DNA of 64,000 nt from Phellopilus nigrolimitatus (Eukaryota; Basidiomycota; Agaricomycetes; Hymenochaetales; Hymenochaetaceae): NCBI GenBank assembly GCA_021029095.1, contig JAJOHG010000038.1:1-64000 (forward strand). The letters are read 5' to 3'. Every line of letters begins with the position of its first letter. Positions within the stretch are counted from its first letter, which is position 1. The notes under the pieces are model-generated. The model did not search any database, was not told the origin of the DNA, and worked only from the letters and a program-made list of their open reading frames with translations. The position numbers and the translations under genes were made by a program. Below, piece after piece: positions 5,473 to 42,452 of this stretch.

Positions 5473-5534
5473 ATAAATATTGTGCACCGAAGTGCATTCC
5501 ACTCTGAAAAGCGTGTCATCCTTGTGCAGGGGCC

Positions 5535-5565
<31 letters not shown>

Positions 5566-5589
5566 TTCGTATGTCACCCCGAAGGGGAC
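5473..5589 (-). ncRNA. U6 spliceosomal snRNA (possible pseudogene)
   Basis: On the minus strand a 5' stem-loop GTCCCCTTCGGGGTGAC (5589-5573) is followed by AATTGGAACGATACAGAGA and AGATTAGCATGGCCCCTGC, then ACAAGGATGACACGC. The ACAGAGA box, the AGC triad and the internal stem-loop region are fully conserved, so identity with U6, the catalytic snRNA, is clear. The 3' part is not typical: the sequence after GACACGC runs TTTTC at once (5510-5507), which could end pol III transcription early, and the next T-run is at 5473-5470. I see no clear TATA box 30 bp upstream. It may be a functional gene with an unusual 3' end or one of the dispersed U6 pseudogenes fungi carry. The 3' limit given is the second T-run. 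Confidence 0.82.
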
Positions 5590-21556: not shown

Positions 21557-21636
21557 CCTTTTGCAAGAATAACGGGAGTCGAGTATGACGGTCGCTATCG
21601 GACAAAAAACATTGGACTTGGGGATTTTGGACTTTG

Positions 21637-21910
21637 ACTTGGGAAATTCATCGATGATCACTAGTGATCACTGGTGAAAACCAAGTCCAAGAGCTATTCA
21701 TCGATGATCACTAGTGATCACTAGTGATCATCGATGATCATCGATGAATGGAGACTTGGAATTCACTAGCCATCAATGATCATCAATGAAAAAAGTTATG
21801 TTTTCATTGATCACTAGTGATCACTAGTGATGACTACTCATTGATGATCATCAATGATCATCAATGAGTAATGATTTTTACAAGTCAAATCCTCAATCAT
21901 CGTTCATTGA
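21637..21910. repeat. Left subterminal palindrome array
   Basis: Runs of interlocking palindromes TGATCA, ACTAGT and ATCGAT, arranged as GATCACTAGTGATC and GATCATCGATGATC, interrupted by the GGACTTGG and GTTTTCA phrases. The mirror array lies at the right end (25820-26195). Such sequence can fold on itself repeatedly; it has no open frame. Confidence 0.85.
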
Positions 21911-22009
21911 TGATGCATGAAAACGACTTGAAAGGCCAGTTTTATTACAAATATTCTCCTTTCCGACCAGACCCGACATCCCTATGACACATTGTTCCTT
22001 GGCGGTACC

Positions 22010-23186
22010 TTATCCAAGGCGAGCGCAGACTGCACAGCATTCTGATTGTTTACTACCGGAAGCTTCAAGGTGAGCCCACTGAGCATATATACGACTACAC
22101 TCAGGTCCCGCAGACGAAAGTCTGCAGGGCCTTCAATGCCTTTTGCGCGCAGTTTATTTTTCGAAAGTTCAAGCTCTACCTCCGGGACATGCGTTTCGGC
22201 AGACGGCCTTCGTGCACGCCATGGGATTCTAAGTTCTCGAGGGAGCGCCTCACGGTCCTCGAGTCCCTCGACCGCAAGGGCGCATGGGTGCGCGAGCTTA
22301 CTCTATTCGACGCACAGAGCGGGAACGTCCCCGTGCTTCCCGACGAGTTCATGCCCGAGCTGATGAAGTCACTCAAGGGCTTTCCCGGGATAACAAGCTC
22401 CACGCAATGTCGAAAGGCCTGTGCCCGCGGAGCTGTGGAACTTAATCTGGGACCAACGTGACCAGATTAATAGTCTCACCTTCATAGGACATTGGACACC
22501 TCCAGCTGGAGAAGGTACCCTTCCCATTGACGGAATTAATTCGCTCACCCTGGAGCCACTATGCATACAGACAAAGCCGTTCTTGCAGGTACGTCCTTTC
22601 TTACATTCGCAGCTTCATTGATCGTCGTACTAACGCGTCTCGTAACCACCGTGCAGCTCGTGAAGACCCCGGAACTCCGCCTAGTTCACGAGTACTTCGG
22701 ATATGATGGAGAGAAAGCGGACCTGTACCCGTTCAAGAAGACACGCACCTGTGCCGCATCGAGGTCGATATCTACAGCCATGGGAGAAGCTTCAAGGGCG
22801 AACACACTGAGCATATATACGACTTCACTGAGATGCTGCAGACGAAAGTGAAAGCGAGCGTACACGGTCTCTGCGAGTACGAGATGCATTTTCCGGTGCG
22901 TTTTTTCAGCCTTGCTTTACTCTTCTGGCCATCATGACTGACGGACGCATAGTCAACGTGGAAGCGTGTCAAAGAGGTTCTCCCCAAACTGTTCGTGGAC
23001 GACCTCTCCACGTTTGATGTCCGTCATGTAGGCGGCAGCCCCGAAGCCATCATTGTACGCGAACCGCGGGAAGGCTGGACTCCGGTTAATCAAGCCCACC
23101 TGGAGGAGCAGGCTCAAGATGACGAGGAACAGAGAGATATGAACAACTACTACAGGTGGAAGACCTATATGCAGTTCGGCAGGTAG
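22010..23186 (+). pseudogene. Captured F-box/LRR-like gene fragment
   Basis: Plus-strand coding pieces: WVRELTLFDAQSGNVPVLPD, then MPELMKSLKGFPGIT, LWNLIWDQRDQINSLTFIG; a GT-AG intron (22589-22656); LVKTPELRLVHEYFGYDGE, LHRIEVDIYSHGRSFKGEHT; a second intron (22896-22952); then TWKRVKEVLPKLFVDDLSTF and an end at 23186. The alternation of Leu-rich beta/alpha units and the RELTLF phrase resemble leucine-rich C-terminal halves of Agaricomycete F-box proteins. At least two frame breaks are present (near 22400). A phrase of about 45 bp (GCATATATACGACT...) occurs twice, at 22083 and 22810, so part of the fragment is duplicated. Intact introns show it was captured as DNA. Confidence 0.6.
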
Positions 23187-23472
23187 ATCAAGTATAGGAC
23201 GTAGTCACACTCTTAACAAACCGCTGTCTAGATTTCATTTCCAAACTAAACACCCAATCATGTGAATATAACTTAGAGCGCCCTACGACGTGTTACTATG
23301 TCTTGTTTACGCGTTTTTCGCACTCTGAACCAACCCATAAATCTTTTCAAGAAATTTTGAAATGCGTCCACTACTTATACAACAAGCACTGGAAGTACAG
23401 GAGAACAAAGGCAGAATATATGTGATGCTAAATGCTAAATTGACAATAAAATGATAGCATACAGAAGTGACA

Positions 23473-24190
23473 TTACGAGTAATACAAGGGATAGTTCAGT
23501 ACCGGCGGACTCCCTTCCGGATTATCCAGCTCTGCGACGATCCTGCGAAGCAACGAGCGGTCAAGTAAAACGTGACACAGAGACATTTGTTCTCACCTGA
23601 AGATCTGCATATCCACCTAAAATAGAATAAACCGAGTTGTAAGAATAAGAGACACAAAAACTTAAAGCACAAGAGAACAAAGTATTCACCGGCGCCTTGA
23701 AAACATAGAAGAAATGGGTGCGATCGTGCGCGTGCGCATCCAAGTTTTCGCACACATCACAGAGATTCTTCGCGCAGTACACATAACGGAACCACTCGTC
23801 CTTGATGCGGTCCATGCAGTGGTCACACAGCGCCGCGTTGTGGTAGAGCGTCGCGAGATAAGCTGGGAGAGCAGATGCAAATACGTCAGAAAAAGGGATG
23901 GGTTTTCCGGACGTGGAAGGGCGTACGGACCTTTGGGATGAGAGGAGTTGAGTCGACCTGCTGGACCTGCCGGCTGCCTGTACCTGACATCCGCGAACAG
24001 ATGTTAGTTTACGAAACACGATATCTGAAGGAAATGCGATGGGGACGTACAGAATAGGCAGAATAGCAAATTGCGACTCAATTGGACGGTCCACGGGCCG
24101 CGGTAGCTTAAAATAAATATGCATTGGGTCGTGAAGAAGATGCGATTGCTGCTCGCAGCTGGCGCACTGAACGGAGCAATACGAAGAGCG
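23473..24190 (-). pseudogene. Captured ZZ-type zinc-finger protein, C-terminal part
   Basis: Minus strand: HLLHDPMHIYFKLPRPVDRP (about 24150-24090), an intron, then LYHNAALCDHCMDRIKDEWF, YCAKNLCDVCENLDAH and HFFYVFKAP (23870-23690). The C-x2-C ... C-x2-C spacing with an upstream HDPMH is the ZZ zinc-binding domain of a multi-ZZ fungal protein. Two more introns follow, and the exons join to KAPVDMQIFRIVAELDNPEG and a natural stop at 23473-23475, so the true C-terminus and 3' flank were captured. The upstream end is joined abruptly to ARG5,6 sequence at about 24150-24190. Copy 2 of the element keeps only the last exons. Confidence 0.75.
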
Positions 24191-25758
24191 AACAACAGCT
24201 CCTCGTAAAGCGCTTTCACCTCGCGCGCGGCGACCTTCCTGCTCGGCGGCGCGGACAGCACGCTGAGGATTCCGCTGAACCACGGCGCGACGGACGGCAC
24301 GAACGCGACCTTCATCTCGCTTCCGAATGCAGCAGGGAGGAGCGTCGCGAGGTGCCGCCCGGCCTCGCGCTCGTGGATGTGGTCCGTGAGCGCGTACGGG
24401 CGCACGCCGCCGTGCAGCGGCGCCGGCGAGACCTTCGGCTCGGTCGTGCGGCGCCCGGCCGCGTCCTGCGCGCCGGCGACGGTTCCCGCGCCGCTGTAGC
24501 CCGAGAGCCCGAAGACGGTCGGCCAGACTCCCGGCAGAACGAGTCCGGCCTTGACACGCGGCCCGAGGAGGAGCTGCGCGGACGTCGCGTAGCAGCCCGG
24601 GTTCGCGATGCGTGACGCGCGCCGCACGGTGGAGCGGCCGTACAGTTCTGGATGTCGTGTTCAGATTTCGCCAGTCGACGAGTAGCGTAAACATAGAAAG
24701 AAGTGTATTCAAAAATATAAAAGCAGTATTTTTTTTAGTTATAAGTACGTCAAGGAGCCAGTTTACATGGTGGGCGCATTCGCCTGCTCACCCGGAAGCC
24801 CGTACGTCCAGCCGTCCTCAAAGCGGTAGTCCGCGCTCAGGTCGACGACGACGCTGCCCTTCCCGCCCGCGCGCCTCTGCGCGCCGCTGTCAACCGCGTC
24901 CACGAACGGCTTCTCCGCGCCGTTCGGGAGCGCCATCACCCACGCGTCGACCTCCCCGGCCTCCTCCATCCGCTGCACGTCCGCTGCGGACAGGTTCGAG
25001 TACTCCACACGGTGCTTCGTGTACAAGTCGAGTACAGACCCCGCGAGCTGGCGCGACGAGACGTGGGTGAGGTCCAGATGCGGGTGGCCCGAGAGCAGGC
25101 CCGTGAGCGTGCGCCCGGTGTAGCCCCGCGCGCCGATGAGCGCGAGACGCTTCGGTTCTGTAGATGTCGGGGCAGCTGTGGTGGCGTAGCCGCGCGACGA
25201 GCCTGGGAGATGCATCGCGTTCCTCCGTGCGAACGTCGAGTAGGAGCGCACGCTGTTCAAGGGCGGAGCGCGGTGCGGCGGAGCCGACGGGCCCACGGGG
25301 AGATAAGCACGCTCGATGCGGCCCTTCACCTCGAGGTCCTTGACGTTCTTCTCGACGTCCTCAATGTTCTGGATGCCGCACCAGAGGAGGCTGCGGCCTT
25401 CGCGCGTGAAGCTGCCGTCCGCGCGCTCAAAGTGCCACTCCGCTCCCGGGCGCGCGATGGCTGCAGCCGCATCGGCCGCGTCGTCGCTCGTGCGCGCGGT
25501 CCAGAACAGGCGGCGGTGGTCGCGTCGGATGGCGGCGAAGACGTTGTCGATGACGCTGTTGAGCACGCCATTGCGAGACGCGAGGAGCTTCGTGAGCACG
25601 GGGACCTCGCCCTCCGGTTGCGATACGATGGCGACAACGTCAAAGGCCTCGTCGCCGTAGATCGTATAAGGCGTCTTTTTGAGCTCGTTGAGGATGCACG
25701 AGAGCGTGGGAACGAGGGCGGGTGTCCGCTCGATATCGCGTAACAGGACGTCGATCAA
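24150..25758 (-). pseudogene. Captured ARG5,6 fragment (acetylglutamate kinase NAT domain + AGPR)
   Basis: The minus-strand frame from 25758 encodes part of the mitochondrial arginine-pathway precursor: the NAT/DUF619 region (SRNGVLNSVIDNVFAAIRRD, RSLLWCGIQNIEDVEK), a linker, then N-acetyl-gamma-glutamyl-phosphate reductase (LALIGARGYTGRTLTGLL NAD-binding motif, HVSSRQLAGS, ADYRFEDGW). A GT-AG intron (24783-24643) leads to the catalytic NPGCYATSAQLL, FGLSGYSGAGT and LTDHIHERE, up to KALYEELLFALRI. The kinase domain proper and the AGPR C-terminus (the GVEVGGF part) are missing, so no full enzyme can result, yet the frame is open from 25758 through the intron to the junction. The real ARG5,6 must lie elsewhere. 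GC content is well above the flanking element DNA. Confidence 0.88.
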
Positions 25759-25819
25759 AGTTTGCGGCTGTGTTACTACTAAATATTAAATTATAGTATT
25801 TTTTGTCGGATGATCTCGG

Positions 25820-26195
25820 ATTTGAGGCATTCACCACTCATCAGTGAGTGGTGAATGCCAGTCAAGTTCATTCACTGATCATTGCTCATTTATGAGGCTT
25901 TTTATTAGACTTGAATAAATAGATTTTCACTGTTCATCAATGACTGGTGAACACTCAAGTCGAAGCACGACGTTCATTGATGATCACTGATGAACAATGA
26001 ACCCAAGTCCCCATTCATTAATGATCACTAGTGATCACTAGTGAACGATGAAAACCAAGTGCCCATTCATCGACAATCACTAGTGATCACTAGTGATCAT
26101 CGATGAATAGCACTTAGACTTGGTTTTCACCAGTGATCACTAGTGATCATCGATGATCATCGATGATCATCGATGATCATCACTATCTCAAGTCT
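25820..26195. repeat. Right subterminal palindrome array
   Basis: Counterpart of 21637-21910: strings of GATCACTAGTGATC and GATCATCGATGATC with AGTCCA phrases, in inverse order, ending before the GTCCAGTAACGACCGTCAA terminus. The same array is in copy 2 (35820-36190). Confidence 0.85.
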
Positions 26196-26235
26196 AAGTC
26201 CACTATTTTGTCCAGTAACGACCGTCAAAGTCGAG

Positions 26236-34651: not shown

Positions 34652-36221
34652 TATGACGGTCGCTATCGGACAAAAAACATTGGACTTGGGGATTTTGGAC
34701 TTTGACTTGGGAAATTCATCGATGAATATCAATGAACGGAGACTTGGAATTCACCAGTCATCAATGATCATCAATGAAAAAAGTTATGTTTTCATTGATT
34801 ACTAGTGATCACTATTGATTACTAATCATTGATGATCATTGATGATCATCAATGAGTAATGATTTTTAAAAGTCAAATCTTAATCATTGTTCATTTATGA
34901 TCAATGAATACGACTTTGAAAGACCAGTTTTATTACAAATAACCTCCTTTCCGACCAGACCCGATGTCCTTACGACACATCATTTCGAAGCTGCAGTCGG
35001 TGGCACGTCATAGGGTAGATCCCGGAGGTCCATTCGAGCCACACTTTTGAACAATCCATTGTCTAATTTTCTTTTCCAAAGAGACATAAATTAGAGTGCC
35101 CCTCAACACGTTACTATGTCTTGATTACACTTTTTTGCACTCTGAGCCAACCCATAAATCTTCCAAGAAGATTGAAATGCATCCGCTACATATACAACAA
35201 GCACTGGAAGTACAGGAAGGCAAAATACATGTGATGCTAATTGGCAATAAAATGATAGCGAACAGAAGTGACATTACGAGTAATACACGGGATAGCTCAG
35301 CACCGGCGGACTCCCTTCCAGATTATCCAGCTCTGCGACAATCCTGCGAAGCAACGAACGGTCAGGTAAAACGTGACACAGAGACATTTATTCTCACCTG
35401 AAGATCTGCATATCCACCTAGAATAAAATAAACTGAGTTATAATAATAAGAGACACAAAAACTTAAAGCACAAGAGAGCAAAGTATTCACCGGCGCCTTG
35501 AAAACATAGAAGAAATGGCGGCGAAGACGTTGATGACGCTGTTGAGCACGCCGTTGCGAGACGCGAGGAGCTTCGTGAGCACGGGGACCTCGCCCTCCGG
35601 GTGCGACACGATGGCGACGACGTCAAAGGCCTCGTTGCCGTAGATCGTATAAGGCGTCTTTTTGAGCTCGTTGAGGATGCATGAGAACGTGGGAACGAGG
35701 GCGAGTGTCCGCCCGATATCGCATAACAGGATGAAGCAGAACGTCGATCAAAGTTTGCGGCTGTGTTACTACTAAATATTAAATTATAGTCTTTTTTGTC
35801 GGATGATCTCGGATTTGAGGCATTCACCACTCATCAGTGAGTGGTGAATGCCAGTCAAGTCCATTCACTGATCATTGCTCATTTATGAGGCTTTTCATTA
35901 GACTTTTATAAATAGAATTTCACTGTTCATCAATGACTGGTGAACACTCAAGTCGAAGCACGAAGTTCATTGATGATCACTGATGAACAATGAACCCAAG
36001 TCCCCATTCATTAATGATCACTAGTGATCACTAGTGAACGATGAAAACCAAGTGCCCATTCATCGACGATCACTAGTGATCACTAGTGATCATCGATGAA
36101 TAGCTCTTAGACTTGGTTTTCACCAGTGATCACTAGTGATCACTAGTGATCATCGATGATCATCGATGATCATCACTATCTCAAGTCTAAGTCCACTATT
36201 TTGTCCAGTAACGACCGTCAA
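34652..36221. mobile_element. Pack-type TIR transposon, copy 2, 1570 bp internal-deletion derivative
   Basis: Same termini as copy 1, perfect 7-bp duplication AGAATAC. The interior keeps about 300 bp of left end, the 3' end of the captured ZZ gene (35090-35518, antisense) and the start of the captured ARG5,6 fragment (35519-35760, antisense), then the right palindrome array. Relative to copy 1 it lacks the F-box/LRR fragment and, at one clean junction, the 1815 bp between 23714 and 25528; the junction is at a shared ATGG (35515-35518). Confidence 0.88.
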
Positions 36222-36357
36222 AGAATACTGATGTCGATAGACGTACATTGCGATGTAACAATGTTGGTAAAATATGTATAGAATGGACTTCTAGAGAGGT
36301 CTCCTGTATCGCAGACGAGAGGAAAAGCGAGAGAATAGAATTAGGGGAGCTCAAAGT

Positions 36358-36768: not shown

Positions 36769-37392
36769 CTTCTCATTGCGCATTCTCCAAACGTCTCTCT
36801 CATCTCTACCTCGCCCTCATCTCTATAAACTCTTGCCTTGTCGTCGCGACACGTTGCGGCGGCCTGTTTTCATCACTTCACAATTTCACCTCACACCCGA
36901 CGCGTGCGTTCAGAGCGGTACGACCTTCGACCTCGAGGACACCACCTTCGACCTGAACAGCACTTCCGACACACGCATCGACTCTCCATCTTCTACCTTC
37001 AGCGCCAACACTATCAAGAACGACCTCACCTTCGGTTCCCGCGACCTCGTCCTTACCGTCATTGATCCCTTGATCGACGCGCGGCTTTTTGATAGGAAAC
37101 CCCATACTCCCACACACGCGGAAATCAGAGTGTCAGGTTCCACTACCGACTCGCCGCGTGTTCACTTTCTACTCCTTGCTTTATTAAATCGCACCCCACG
37201 CGCTTGGTGAACTTTTGGTAGCGTAGGCTTAAGCCGAGCTATTGGGAACGATACCCCACGAGTAGTAAGGGACAGGCGAACACCACGTCGTAGCCCTCTC
37301 GTGCAATTGCTGAAGCGTGTGTGCCTGGCGGCGCCGTAGTTAGTAGAATTATATACCGAAACATATCTCGTTGCTAGTTAGTTTCCCCAGAC
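36769..37392 (+). other. Chromovirus leader
   Basis: 624 nt between primer site and gag ATG. An open frame crosses it from the LTR but has no coding features; probably untranslated and packaging sequence. Confidence 0.5.
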
Positions 37393-38604
37393 ATGGCGGG
37401 CAACTTTACGGAGCAGCAGTTGCTGAACCTCATTGGGACTCTATCGCAGGAGGTGGTACACTTGGGTGCACAGTTGGCGGCACTCACCACCAATGTTGCC
37501 AACCTCGCCGCAATTCCCCCTCCTGCAGCAGCGGCAGCACCTGCACCAGCTCCCATTGCGGCGCGACCTCCTATGCCTAAAACTGCTCTACCCCCAATCT
37601 ACGATGGAAAAAGGGAAGAGGCAGAAGGATGGCTGCTTGCAACACGACTCTACATTTCGACACACGCTGCATCATTCCCAACCGTATTTGAGGAGGTGGT
37701 GTTTGCGCTTTCATACATGCAAGGGGAGGTGGTGAATGATTGGAAGCAAATGTATCTGGATAGGATGGAAGCGAATGCTCGGGACCGCAGCGCGGCGGCA
37801 AATGCGACACCACCCCAAGCACCCCCTCCTGAAACCTTCCCTACATGGCCGAGTTTCGCGGAGGTCTTCAAGATGCGTTTTGCAGACCCCAATCCCAGAG
37901 CCACGGCTGTCTCCAAACTGGAGAACATACGCCAAGGAACAGAGTCGGCAGATGCGTTCATAGTAAAGTTCCAAGACCTTGCTGCGCGAACTGGTTATAA
38001 TGACGCTGCATTAATTGAAGTGTTCAAAAAGAAAATTAATGGTCAGCTACTTACGCGTCTGTACGCATTACCGGCAATGCCTACCACCCTCCAGCGATTC
38101 GAGCACCCACCAGGGTCAGGAGCGTTCATTGATGGATGGTACGAGTGGGCCCAGCGACTTGATCGACAGTGGCGAGAAAGCGAAGCCTATCGTCGCAGTG
38201 CGGTGGAGCAAAAGCGAGTGACTCCAGGACAGTCAGGGAATGCAGGGAAGGCGACGCAGACTCAGACTCAGACAAGGACGTACCAACAACCACAGGTGCC
38301 GGTACAACAAAGTTATGGACAGGGTAGGGCTCAGCCGGGTGCGTCAGGGACGTCGACCACGGGAGCGCCTAGAGACCCTAATGCGATGGATGTGGACCGG
38401 ACGGGCCGTAGGCCGCCGGTGAAGTGTTTCAAATGCGGTCGTCTTGGACATTATGCGAGGGACTGTAAAGTGGGCCTCGATGTCAGGGCGATGACGTATG
38501 ACCAGATGCGCGACTATTTCGAGCAAGAAGCTGCTGCGCAGAAGGACAAGGATGCTCTGGAGGGGAAGGCTAAGGAGCAGGGTTTTCAAACCGAGTCCAA
38601 GTGA
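37393..38604 (+). CDS. gag: Chromovirus Gag
   Basis: 403 residues. Starts [20 protein letters not shown]; Ala/Pro-rich linker (about 40-60); retrotransposon gag/capsid domain ([50 protein letters not shown], about 70-220); Gln-rich region; one CCHC zinc knuckle [14 protein letters not shown] near residue 345. Forms the virus-like particle and binds genomic RNA. Ends TGA overlapping the pol frame. Confidence 0.95.
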
Positions 38605-41600
38605 ACAATCTCCCGCTTGTGACTCAGAATCGATTTTCTTCTTTGAATGATGATGTAATATTAGACTGTAAAGGTTCAGGGGGGTCTCTGACTGGTTCAG
38701 AGCTCGGCGCCAAAAGGGCGTGCTTAATTCCCCATTCGAATACATGTTCTTGTCCCAATTCATCATCGGAAAAGGAAGGAAAAGGAGAGAAGAAATTCAT
38801 TCGATCGGTCAACAGTCGACATGTCGCAATGCGAATCACATTGCAGACTAGCGACACCAACGAAAGACTAGATGTAGAAGCGCTACTGGATAGTGGTGCT
38901 ACTGGCCTCTTCATTGACACCGAATTTGTAAAATCAAACCGTCTAAAGACACGTAAGCTTGCACGAAGCATACCGGTCTACAATGTAGATGGGACAAAGA
39001 ACCAAGGAGGGTCAATAGATGAGGAAGTAGACTTAATTGTGCAGTATGGGGAACATCGAGAAAAGGCAACTTTCGAAATCTGTAACCTGGGTAAAACCAC
39101 TGTCATTTTAGGGCACCCATGGTTAAAAAGACATAATCCAGAAATCGATTGGAGCTCAGGCGAAGTAAAGCTGACTCGATGCCCCAAAACATGCCAGTCA
39201 CTGCAGAAGCGAGAAAAGAGAGAGAAGGAGGCTAGGATACGAACAATAAAGCCTATGCCGGGCTTGATAGCCGATGAGGATGATGATGAGGAGGATGAAT
39301 TGGATAGGAGGATTGTGGAGGAAATGTTCTGGTTACGCTACATTGACGAGAAAGATGGACCTACTCCTGAACCCCTCAATTGGAAGGTGGCAGAACCGCC
39401 AGACTGGAAAAGCAAGGTGCCAGAAAGGTTTCATGAATTCCTGGACGTATTTGATCAGAAAACGTCGGAACGGCTCCCAACAAGAAAACCATGGGATCAT
39501 GAAATAAGCCTAAAACCTGACTTCGTGCCTAAAAAGTCAAAAGTTTATCCATTGTCTCAGGATGAGGATGACAAGGTTGGACGCTTTATTCAGGAACAGG
39601 AGGCAAAAGGATATATTCGGCCATCAAAGTCGCCAATGACGTCACCCATCTTCTTTATCAACAAAAAAGATGGAAAGCGTCGGATGATTACAGACCATCG
39701 GTATCTAAACTCCGGCACTGTCAAAAATGCGTATCCACTTCCTTTGATATCGGACATCATTGATAAACTCAAAGGCGCTAAGTACTTCTCAAAAATGGAT
39801 TTGCGCTGGGGGTATCACAATGTTCGAATTAAAGAGGGTGACGAGTGGAAGGCGGCCTTTGCAACAAGTAGGGGAGCGTATGAACCATTAGTCATGACCT
39901 TTGGATTGTGTAATGCACCAAGCACCTTTCAAAACATGATGAACGACATATTCAATGACCTAATGATTGAAGGAGTCGTTGTGATCTACATTGATGACAT
40001 TTTGGTTTTTACTGAAACTATGGAAGAAAATGATCGCATAGTAAAAGAGATCCTGAAAAGGCTTCGCGAAAACGATCTATTCCTAAAACCTGAAAAATGT
40101 GTCTTTGGCGTAGAAGAGGTGGAGTTTTTGGGAATGATGATTCGGAATGGTGAAGTTAGTATGATGGAGGACAAAGTGGAGGGAGTGAAGAATTGGCCTG
40201 TTCCAAAGAAAGTCAAGGACGTCGAGTCATTTTTGGGTTTTGCAAACTTCTATCGTCGCTTCATAAAAGATTTTGCAAAGATCACCAGACCCTTAAATGA
40301 CTTGAAAAAGAAAGACAAGACTTGGAAGTGGGGAGAGAAGGAACAAAAGGCATTTGACGAACTAAAAGCACGATTCTGCGCTAGACCAGTCGTAGTCATT
40401 CCAGATTCAAGGAAAGAAATGCGAGTTGAATCAGACGCATCGGACTTTGCCACAGGAGCCGTACTTTCGATGAAATGCGATGACGGTCTATGGAGGCCTT
40501 GTGCATACTTGTCTAAATCCTTGAATGATGTCGAGAGAAATTATGACGTGCATGACAAAGAATTATTGGGAATCATGCGAGCGCTAGAAGCATGGCGTCA
40601 TCACCTAGAGGGCTCCACCCATAAATTCGAAATCTGGACCGATCATAAAAACCTGGAGTATTTCATGAAAGCCAAAAAACTTAACCGTCGACAAGCGCGC
40701 TGGTCCTTATTCCTTTCTCGATTTGATTTTGAAATCATTCATAAACCTGGTGCAACAATGCGTAAAACTGATGCCCTCTCGAGACGAGTGGACCTTAAAG
40801 AGGGGGTGGAGAATGACAACAAAGACGTAGTCCTGTTGAAACCAGAATTTTTCAGAATCAAAGCGACTCAGCAAGGTCATGTGCTGTTAGAAGGGGCAGA
40901 AAAAGAATTATTGACGCAGATCAGAGGGGCTAAGGATTGGGATGAAGCAGTGGTGAAAGCGGCGGATGAACTGCGAAAGTCGGGAACGAGGCGGTTGAGA
41001 GGCGAGGAATGGGAGGAAGAACAGGGCCTGATTCTCTATCGAGGAAAGGTGTATGTCCCCAAAGATGGTCAGATTAGGAGAGAAATTGTCAAACTACATC
41101 ATGACTCAGCAGTAGCAGGACACCCAGGAAACTGGAAGACATTGGAATTAATTGCGCGAAACTATTGGTGGCCAGGAATGACTAAGTTTGTTCAAACTTA
41201 TGTCAAAGGCTGTGACACATGCGCACGCTACAAAATATTTCCAGAAAAACCTGCCGGAAAATTGATGCCTAATCAAACTCCCACTGCACCTTGGGAGGAC
41301 ATATCAGTGGATTTTGTGACCGGATTACCAGAAGCACAGGGCTTTAATGCGCTCTTAGTGGTTTGCGATCGCTTTTCAAAACAAATCCACGTGATCAACA
41401 CAAGAGAGGAGACATCGGCTCTAGGCTTAGCTGCGTTGTACCGAGACCATGTGTGGAAAATCCATGGCTTACCATTGACGGTGATTTCAGATCGAGGTCC
41501 ACAATTTGCGTCTGCATTCATGAAAGAGCTAAATGGCATTTTGGGGATCAAAACAAAACTGTCTACAGCATATCACCCACAAACAGACGGGCAAACAGAA

Positions 41601-42452
41601 CGAATGAATCAAGAAATCGAGCAGTATTTAAGGATGTTTATTGATCATCGCCAAGAAAACTGGCCATCCTGGACTGCTATGGCGGAATTTGCGTACAATA
41701 ATAAAGTACAAACAGCCACAAAGGTTTCTCCATTCTATTCTGTTTATGGACGAAATCCACGGATGGGTTTTGAGGTGCGAAGGGATTCAAAGGTGGAGGC
41801 GGCAGAAGATTTTGCGAATCGGATGAAGGGAATACATGAGGAAGCGAAGTCTGCTTTAGAAAAAGCAAAAGATGAGATGCAGAAGTATGCGGACCAGAGG
41901 CGAGGGGATGCTCCAAAATACAAAGTAGGGGACAAGGTTTGGCTGGACACAACGAATCTTAAAATAAATCGACCCTCGCGGAAACTTGCAGAGAAGAGGA
42001 TTGGCCCATACCCTATCACGCGTATCATCTCCCCTAATGCTGTGCAATTACGACTCCCATCCACCATAAAGATTCATCCAGTTGTCAATGTTTCGCGCAT
42101 ACGTCTACACACCGCCGCAAGCATCCCTGGACAAAGGGCTCTGCCACCACCAGCGATTGAGGTTGGAGAAGAGAAGGACTATGAGGTGGAAGAAATTTTG
42201 GACGCAAGACAGAGGCGTGGAAAGTTGGAGTTTTTAGTCAAGTGGAAGGGCTACACAGATGAGAACAATACTTGGGAACCACAGGAAAATTGCAAGCGTT
42301 CAAGGGGTTTGATAAATGACTTCTACAAAAAGCACCCAGCTGCACCCCGAGCCATCAGCATGATTGATTTCCAAGCCTTGAAATTCCGACCCTATGAGAA
42401 CTTCACCGCTACCCCATCTGATTTTGTTAATCGTCTGGAAGTCGATCCTTAA
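38601..42452 (+). CDS. pol: Chromovirus Pol (protease, RT, RNase H, integrase, chromodomain)
   Basis: About 1283 residues, no stop. Aspartic protease [12 protein letters not shown] (near residue 96); reverse transcriptase with [15 protein letters not shown] and the YIDDILVF catalytic box (near 462); RNase H with [11 protein letters not shown] (near 610) and DHKNLEYF; integrase zinc finger H-x-H-C-x2-C ([13 protein letters not shown] ... CDTCARYK, about 830-880) and DDE core ([27 protein letters not shown]); C-terminal chromodomain ([33 protein letters not shown], about 1192-1235) that would target insertion to marked chromatin. The pol frame is -1 relative to gag and is open from 38574, overlapping gag for 31 nt; it has no ATG until 38829, so expression needs a -1 shift or reinitiation near GTGA at 38601. 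Confidence 0.96.

Follow-up and report, generated by a model that had tools for sequence, protein, structure and literature searches.

A 64,000-nucleotide stretch of the Phellopilus nigrolimitatus genome (the window, C312:1-64000) contains a 4.6-kb transposon. The transposon very probably belongs to a non-autonomous, gene-capturing family of terminal inverted repeat (TIR) elements of the Pack-TYPE kind, moved in trans and generating 6-bp target duplications. The transposon itself is confirmed as real and is not a chance arrangement. It shows the features of Pack-TYPE elements: TIRs, a target duplication, no transposase that was found, and pieces of host coding sequence with source loci elsewhere. 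A first-pass annotation of the window had proposed a gene-capturing transposon of the Pack type, a reading supported by the common ends, the duplications and the source loci that lack such ends. The limits of the element are as follows.

21584-26229: the whole transposon, 4.6 kb
21578..21583: left copy of the target duplication, GTCGAG, 6 bp
26230..26235: right copy of the target duplication, GTCGAG, 6 bp
21584..21607, + strand: left TIR, 24 bp
26206..26229, - strand: right TIR, 24 bp, with 4 mismatches to the left one
21584..21994, + strand: family left end, with subterminal palindromic repeats
25692..26229, + strand: family right end

The left terminus at 21584 reads TATGACGGTCGCTATCGGACAAAA and the right terminus at 26229, in reverse complement, TTTGACGGTCGTTACTGGACAAAA. 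The subterminal palindromic arms (21648-21737 and 26067-26156) are 96% complementary across 90 nt. The inverted termini annotated earlier for a 4.6-kb element are borne out by the 24-bp TIRs and by end pairs throughout the genome, with the right limit corrected from 26228 to 26229. The perfect 7-bp duplication of that annotation is replaced, by comparison with the family, with one of 6 bp; taken literally, the seventh match is obtained only if the terminal A of the element is counted as flank.

The genome (G000; 56,438,583 bases in 635 contigs) was searched with a joint pattern of both ends, allowing up to 2 mismatches, and with the reversed pattern as control. The pattern found 91 matches, against 0 in the control, and 82 of them belong to 41 correctly oriented pairs; the rest are 3 single ends (C24, C471, C607) and 6 looser matches. 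With a looser pattern there were 109 matches, and 5 in the corresponding control. The TIRs thus collect a family, as had been suggested, with ends common to other copies. At least 37 near-complete copies of the left end (88-100% identity, plus one at 74%) and, for 25775-26219, at least 39 of the right end (91-100%, plus one partial) are present in the genome, the window's own counted in both cases. The pairs are 1571 to 11022 bp long (median 4795). Target duplications were judged in 16 of the 41 pairs, where both flanks were read. In 15 of these the duplication is perfect at exactly 6 bp, with no longer exact match, which is why we set its length at 6 and not 7 bp; in the other, C268, 5 of the 6 bases agree.

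These observations bear on whether the repeats could be segmental duplications or assembly artefacts, with inverted repeats arising by chance, an explanation that we consider next to untenable. Copied contigs do occur: C1 and C407 have common flanks, and the C603 locus and its C181 counterpart, which are discussed below, are 97.4% identical over 7.3 kb. Against it stand the sharp ends, the differing flanks and the 6-bp duplications in 15 of 16 members; duplications at different sites already contradict it. In addition, the member at C624:15845-20639 adjoins the terminus of an older left-end copy (76%) and has a 6-bp duplication of its own, CGATAG. C1:972909-977428 and C407:1512-7058 represent one insertion site, with flanks identical for 400 bp on the left and 107 bp on the right and elements that measure 4520 and 5547 bp, respectively. 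Match positions place the difference of about 1 kb in the stretch that separates the left end from the ZZ segment; it may reflect two haplotypes, the assembly, or an internal change after insertion.

Other members are nearly identical in unrelated surroundings. Identity is 99.7% between C522 and C445 in the 3505 bp compared, and their 1-kb left flanks do not match; C25 is 99.6% identical to C2:178346 along 4494 bp, and the two have different duplications. Near-identical elements at unrelated sites indicate that the family was recently active.

Between its ends the window element carries host-like sequence, arranged as follows.

22058..22121, + strand: 64-bp piece of the later part of an F-box-like gene, out of order before the earlier part
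22115..24202: contiguous host-like segment, about 90% identical to C603 and C181, with the end of the F-box-like gene (+) and part of a PB1-ZZ gene (-)
24195..25697, - strand: ARG5,6 piece, part of the NAT domain and most of AGPR, 93% identical to C20 and C323
24648..24791, - strand: ARG5,6 intron, 144 bp, coordinates from the spliced alignment
24195..24202: ZZ/ARG5,6 junction, short imperfect homology (7/8), ACAGCTCC vs ACATCTCC
25692..25697: ARG5,6/right-end junction, weak homology (4/6), GGATGC vs GGTTGG

Candidate donors for this cargo, which the first-pass annotation had proposed to seek in the same genome, were found there: C20 and C323 for ARG5,6, and C603 and C181 for the F-box-like and ZZ genes. 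In the F-box/ZZ part, the window copy (element positions 532-2604) aligns with the C603 locus, as, piecewise, does member C101 (570-4085). Neither C603 nor C181 aligns with the family ends, the best resemblance to the 24-bp end in either locus having 9 mismatches. At C603 the two genes lie on opposite strands, and each extends beyond the captured part. The PB1-ZZ protein matches PB1 (E=1.8e-5) and ZZ (E=4.8e-6) in Pfam. The F-box-like protein matches 0 Pfam families, so that of the F-box/LRR-like gene annotated earlier the host-like piece stands and the F-box name is given by eye only. The 64-bp piece has an alignment score of 83, against at most 25 in 50 shuffles of the surrounding 102 bases, and overlaps the following part at CGAAAGT; at the other limit, the last bases of the segment (24188-24202) follow family member C25. 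Since the F-box-like gene adjoins the ZZ gene at a host-like locus without the ends, the two would most simply have been captured together. All three gene pieces first annotated are present, but they point to two donor loci. The gene order in the genome agrees: ARG5,6 (C20/C323) is no neighbour of the other two (C603/C181), which are themselves ordinary neighbours.

The assignment to ARG5,6, with its NAT domain and most of AGPR, was upheld by matches to NAT (E=8.2e-28) and Semialdhyde_dh (E=3.2e-21) in Pfam and to argC (E=3.3e-49, positions 2-264 of 345); the last reaches 168 bits, short of the curated full-length threshold (233.6), as a truncated piece should be. The intron is intact, as annotated, with its GT/AG borders kept. 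In local alignment, 24195-25697 is 93.4% identical to C20 and 93.0% to C323; in a multiple alignment the values are 93.5% and 93.9%, and C20 and C323 agree at 96.2%. These two are the fullest ARG5,6 copies, with a putative targeting sequence, kinase, NAT and AGPR as judged by eye; they are 92.3% identical over 4.5 kb and presumably represent two haplotypes. A shorter ARG5,6 piece is present on C113 (90%), and more distant pieces lie at L049-L052 and other places. L049-L052 (C323, C75, C168, C446) repeat the 3' part of ARG5,6 at about 81-82% identity to the C20 gene, together with further common sequence, and have no end of the window family within the roughly 3.6 kb read; they are perhaps another element or old duplications.

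The cargo of the other members was counted by placing lists of matches on the 41 pairs, which gives lower bounds. The ZZ segment is present in at least 36 pairs (5 lack a listed ZZ match), the F-box part in at least 4, ARG5,6 in at least 2, both within the window, a piece with ZZ and Myb domains in at least 9, and an LRR-like piece in at least 2. The ZZ count used all 40 matches; the F-box count 8 of 42, the other 34 beginning in the ZZ-side part; the ARG5,6 count 20 of 49, leaving out 21 that fall in the first 143 bases, on the ZZ side, and 8 second pieces; the ZZ+Myb count 14 of 21, leaving out 7 second pieces; and the LRR-like count 2 of 62, the rest being judged by eye, with none inside any pair. 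The ZZ+Myb piece (Pfam ZZ, E=2.2e-6; Myb, E=1.3e-6), which we take to be SWI3-like, has a 90% match at C57:560672-562432, outside all pairs. The LRR-like piece of members C66 and C630 has no Pfam match and is named by eye; C633 and C33 each have matches to it, many in all, at 79-97%, and in the C633/C33 matches compared about 340 bp separates two parts that are contiguous in the element. For the family as a whole, these matches suggest at least four donor loci. C633:29148-88469 and C33 hold clusters of genes, LRR-like by eye, that match the cargo of C66 and C630, and one family member, C633:39020-43781, sits inside the C633 cluster.

How the cargo was assembled can be approached from a second family copy in the window.

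34652..36222, + strand: second family copy, 1571 bp, duplication GAATAC, with an ARG5,6 tail

Both window copies have an identical ARG5,6/right-end junction. Their left halves have different relatives: the left end of the 4.6-kb element is nearest to C522 and C445 (97.6%; 28 of the 41 left ends were comparable), that of the shorter copy to C2:178346 (98.8%), and among nine ZZ sequences the nearest are again C522 and C445 for the former and C147 and C25 for the latter. The shorter copy is therefore not a plain internal deletion of the main element, its left half being from another subfamily. The same junction behind left halves of two subfamilies indicates that one ARG5,6 cassette was combined with two left halves, that is, that cassettes were shuffled. 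The LRR-like insert of C66 breaks the family backbone without loss of a base; it has neither a duplication nor ends of its own and was rejected as a nested transposon.

We propose that a transposase acting in trans would recognise the common ends and create the 6-bp duplications. An early member would have acquired one contiguous host segment, with the F-box-like and PB1-ZZ genes, and spread; later members would have shed parts of it and acquired the ARG5,6, SWI3-like and LRR-like pieces. Capture would most likely occur while a broken or excised element is being repaired, when a template is copied from elsewhere after a switch at a few homologous bases, and a similar exchange would swap halves among members. 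Repair with template switching is favored because of the C66 insert, the out-of-order F-box piece, the homology at the junctions and the two left halves. The cargo would then probably have no function of its own.

In a model proposed for Pack-CACTA, capture instead follows aberrant excision of two neighbouring elements that enclose the chromosomal DNA between them (PMC13317346). The layout of left half, ARG5,6 and right end fits such an event, as do the different nearest relatives of the window copy's two ends. However, the C66 insert lies at a single point of the backbone with nothing lost, and an out-of-order F-box piece is not expected from simple joining. We regard the tandem-element route as unlikely, though worth keeping in view, and prefer template switching during repair.

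The first-pass annotation had also reported no transposase in the element, and none was found between the ends, not every frame having been scanned against Pfam. Save for about 60 bp at 21995-22057, the window element is accounted for by its two ends and the host-like F-box/ZZ and ARG5,6 parts. Likewise, C25, C66 and C101 consist of ends and host-like parts, and the main frames of all four copies lack a transposase domain. A copy with family ends and a transposase, for which the TIRs were to be used, was not found. One transposase class, rva_4 (PF24764), was chosen by guess from the length of the duplication, and that it is the IS3EU enzyme is also a guess. In the genome rva_4 genes, which are integrase-like, occur at two loci only, on C616 and C489, neither within an end pair. 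The C616 gene (L085, C616:105362-107338) has no stops in the matched exons; the C489 gene (C489:178902-180291) has 2 TGA codons in one match and is 63% identical to it over the first exon. The start of the C616 gene is about 110 bp away from a related right end, TTTGACGGTCTGTACTGGACAAAA, on its outer side, and the same end is found on C290 and C524, which agree with C616 on the element side of this end but not on the gene side. As a candidate enzyme for an element with family ends, the C616 gene is a lead only. The looser end pattern gave no end adjoining the C489 gene among the matches listed, and a PDB search with the transposase core gave 0 matches at E<=0.1.

The related right ends lie in L083 (C616:100300-105252), C290:71186-78995 and C524:862-8672. 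Inward of the one on C616 are pieces of importin-beta (E=7.9e-40, 6.1e-14 and 4.3e-11) and cation-ATPase (E=1.1e-15) genes in scrambled order, and C290 and C524 hold about 7.1 kb more ahead of theirs. The opposite end of the C616 element was not found; these ends perhaps belong to a second capturing family.

The coding state of the ARG5,6 piece is relevant to whether any cargo is retained for function. When spliced, its frame runs for 452 codons with no stop. ARG5,6 had been described as open through the intron up to the fusion with the ZZ gene; an open frame of 408 amino acids does exist (23564-24787) but is not the AGPR frame, which has stops in the intron and is open only once spliced. Beyond the ZZ/ARG5,6 junction the AGPR frame continues in a register other than that of the ZZ gene, and because the two frames differ we reject an in-frame AGPR-ZZ fusion. 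A chimeric transcript across the two is possible. The ratio of nonsynonymous to synonymous rates (dN/dS) is 0.19 and 0.15 between the window piece and the two alleles, and 0.11 between the alleles. Changes private to the window piece number 31 synonymous and 18 replacement, with 0 stops; the corresponding synonymous/replacement counts are 18/7 for C20 and 16/4 for C323. If agreement with C113 is also required, they are 19/11 for the window, 12/4 for C20 and 9/2 for C323.

Such a pattern would result if the piece was recently captured from an unsampled allele, and it is no proof of function. The alternative, that the NAT-AGPR piece yields a protein after splicing or that its RNA acts on the parent gene, could draw on the stop-free codons, the kept splice sites, the low dN/dS and the excess of synonymous over replacement changes. 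However, the encoded enzyme lacks both its ends, the constraint may predate capture (the host alleles differ at a dS of 0.10), and the share of replacements is higher on the window branch (18/49 vs 7/25 and 4/20). Retention for function seems to us improbable.

Some points weigh against the family as proposed here. No transposase is tied to its ends, rva_4 being the sole class tried; the junction homologies are short and imperfect and discriminate weakly; and the constraint on the ARG5,6 frame fits recent capture but function too.

Elsewhere in the window, long frames at 37378-42449 resemble, by eye, gag and pol of a long terminal repeat retrotransposon, and 5485-5589 (- strand) encodes a full-length U6 spliceosomal RNA (90.9 bits).

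Among known systems, Helitrons have neither TIRs nor target duplications, and MULE duplications are generally 9-10 bp. The 6-bp duplications do not agree with the usual lengths in Mutator (MULE), hAT or Helitron elements. For one fungal MULE subgroup 9-10 bp is given (PMC6446971), and hAT duplications are described as usually 8 bp, with 5-, 6- and 7-bp variants (PMC12730594); the length by itself would also fit a hAT6-type family. IS3EU elements likewise have 6-bp duplications and TIRs starting with TAT on the left (PMC10045372, PMC12730594), and fungal IS3EU and other transposons are described there as carrying TET/JBP genes (PMC12730594). The right terminus of our family, however, is TTTGACGG, so that the termini are TA..AA and not TA..TA (PMC10045372); the pairs whose letters were shown have TAT.. 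on the left and ..AAA on the right, and because the TA..TA termini are lacking the family is not filed under IS3EU. It also differs in carrying gene fragments, not whole genes, with no transposase found inside. A more elaborate reading, in which a fungal Pack-TYPE family with IS3EU-like 6-bp targeting repeatedly acquires and reshuffles host gene cassettes and its recent NAT-AGPR cassette yields, after splicing, a truncated arginine-pathway protein or acts as RNA on the parent ARG5,6, seems to us improbable.

Capture of gene pieces in a basidiomycete is described for the Helitrons of Pleurotus ostreatus, which are rolling-circle elements (PMC4289320). Transduplication by TIR transposons is reported from Pyrenophora tritici-repentis, where a shorter, non-autonomous form also occurs, and from Pseudocercospora and relatives (PMC3538342, PMC6710886). 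As in these hAT and Tc1/Mariner elements of Dothideomycetes (histone H3 and others), host sequence lies between TIRs and is amplified. However, in their main forms the gene is accompanied by a hAT domain or transposase, and those of P. fijiensis have 8-bp duplications, whereas our family has no transposase that was found and at least four donor loci. The earlier remark that little comparable is known in fungi therefore needs qualifying for ascomycetes; it holds to the extent that we found no report, in open-licence literature, of a non-autonomous, multi-donor TIR family in a basidiomycete.

The closest likeness is to the Pack-TYPE elements (Pack-MULE, Pack-CACTA), described as a plant group: they too are non-autonomous, with TIRs and target duplications, carry pieces of several host genes, introns included, and spread after capture (PMC8903248). 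Our family differs in its fungal host and its 6-bp duplications. Judging from the papers cited, Pack-TYPE capture has been described mainly from plants, and fungal TIR cases mostly involve a single gene accompanied by a hAT domain or a transposase. In this instance one genome holds the source loci along with the carriers and their sister copies, as well as probable haplotypes, so that steps of capture (single-point insertion, out-of-order copying and cassette exchange) may be read and tested in fungi, and predictions of ARG5,6-, F-box- and SWI3-like genes in such genomes may be transposon cargo.

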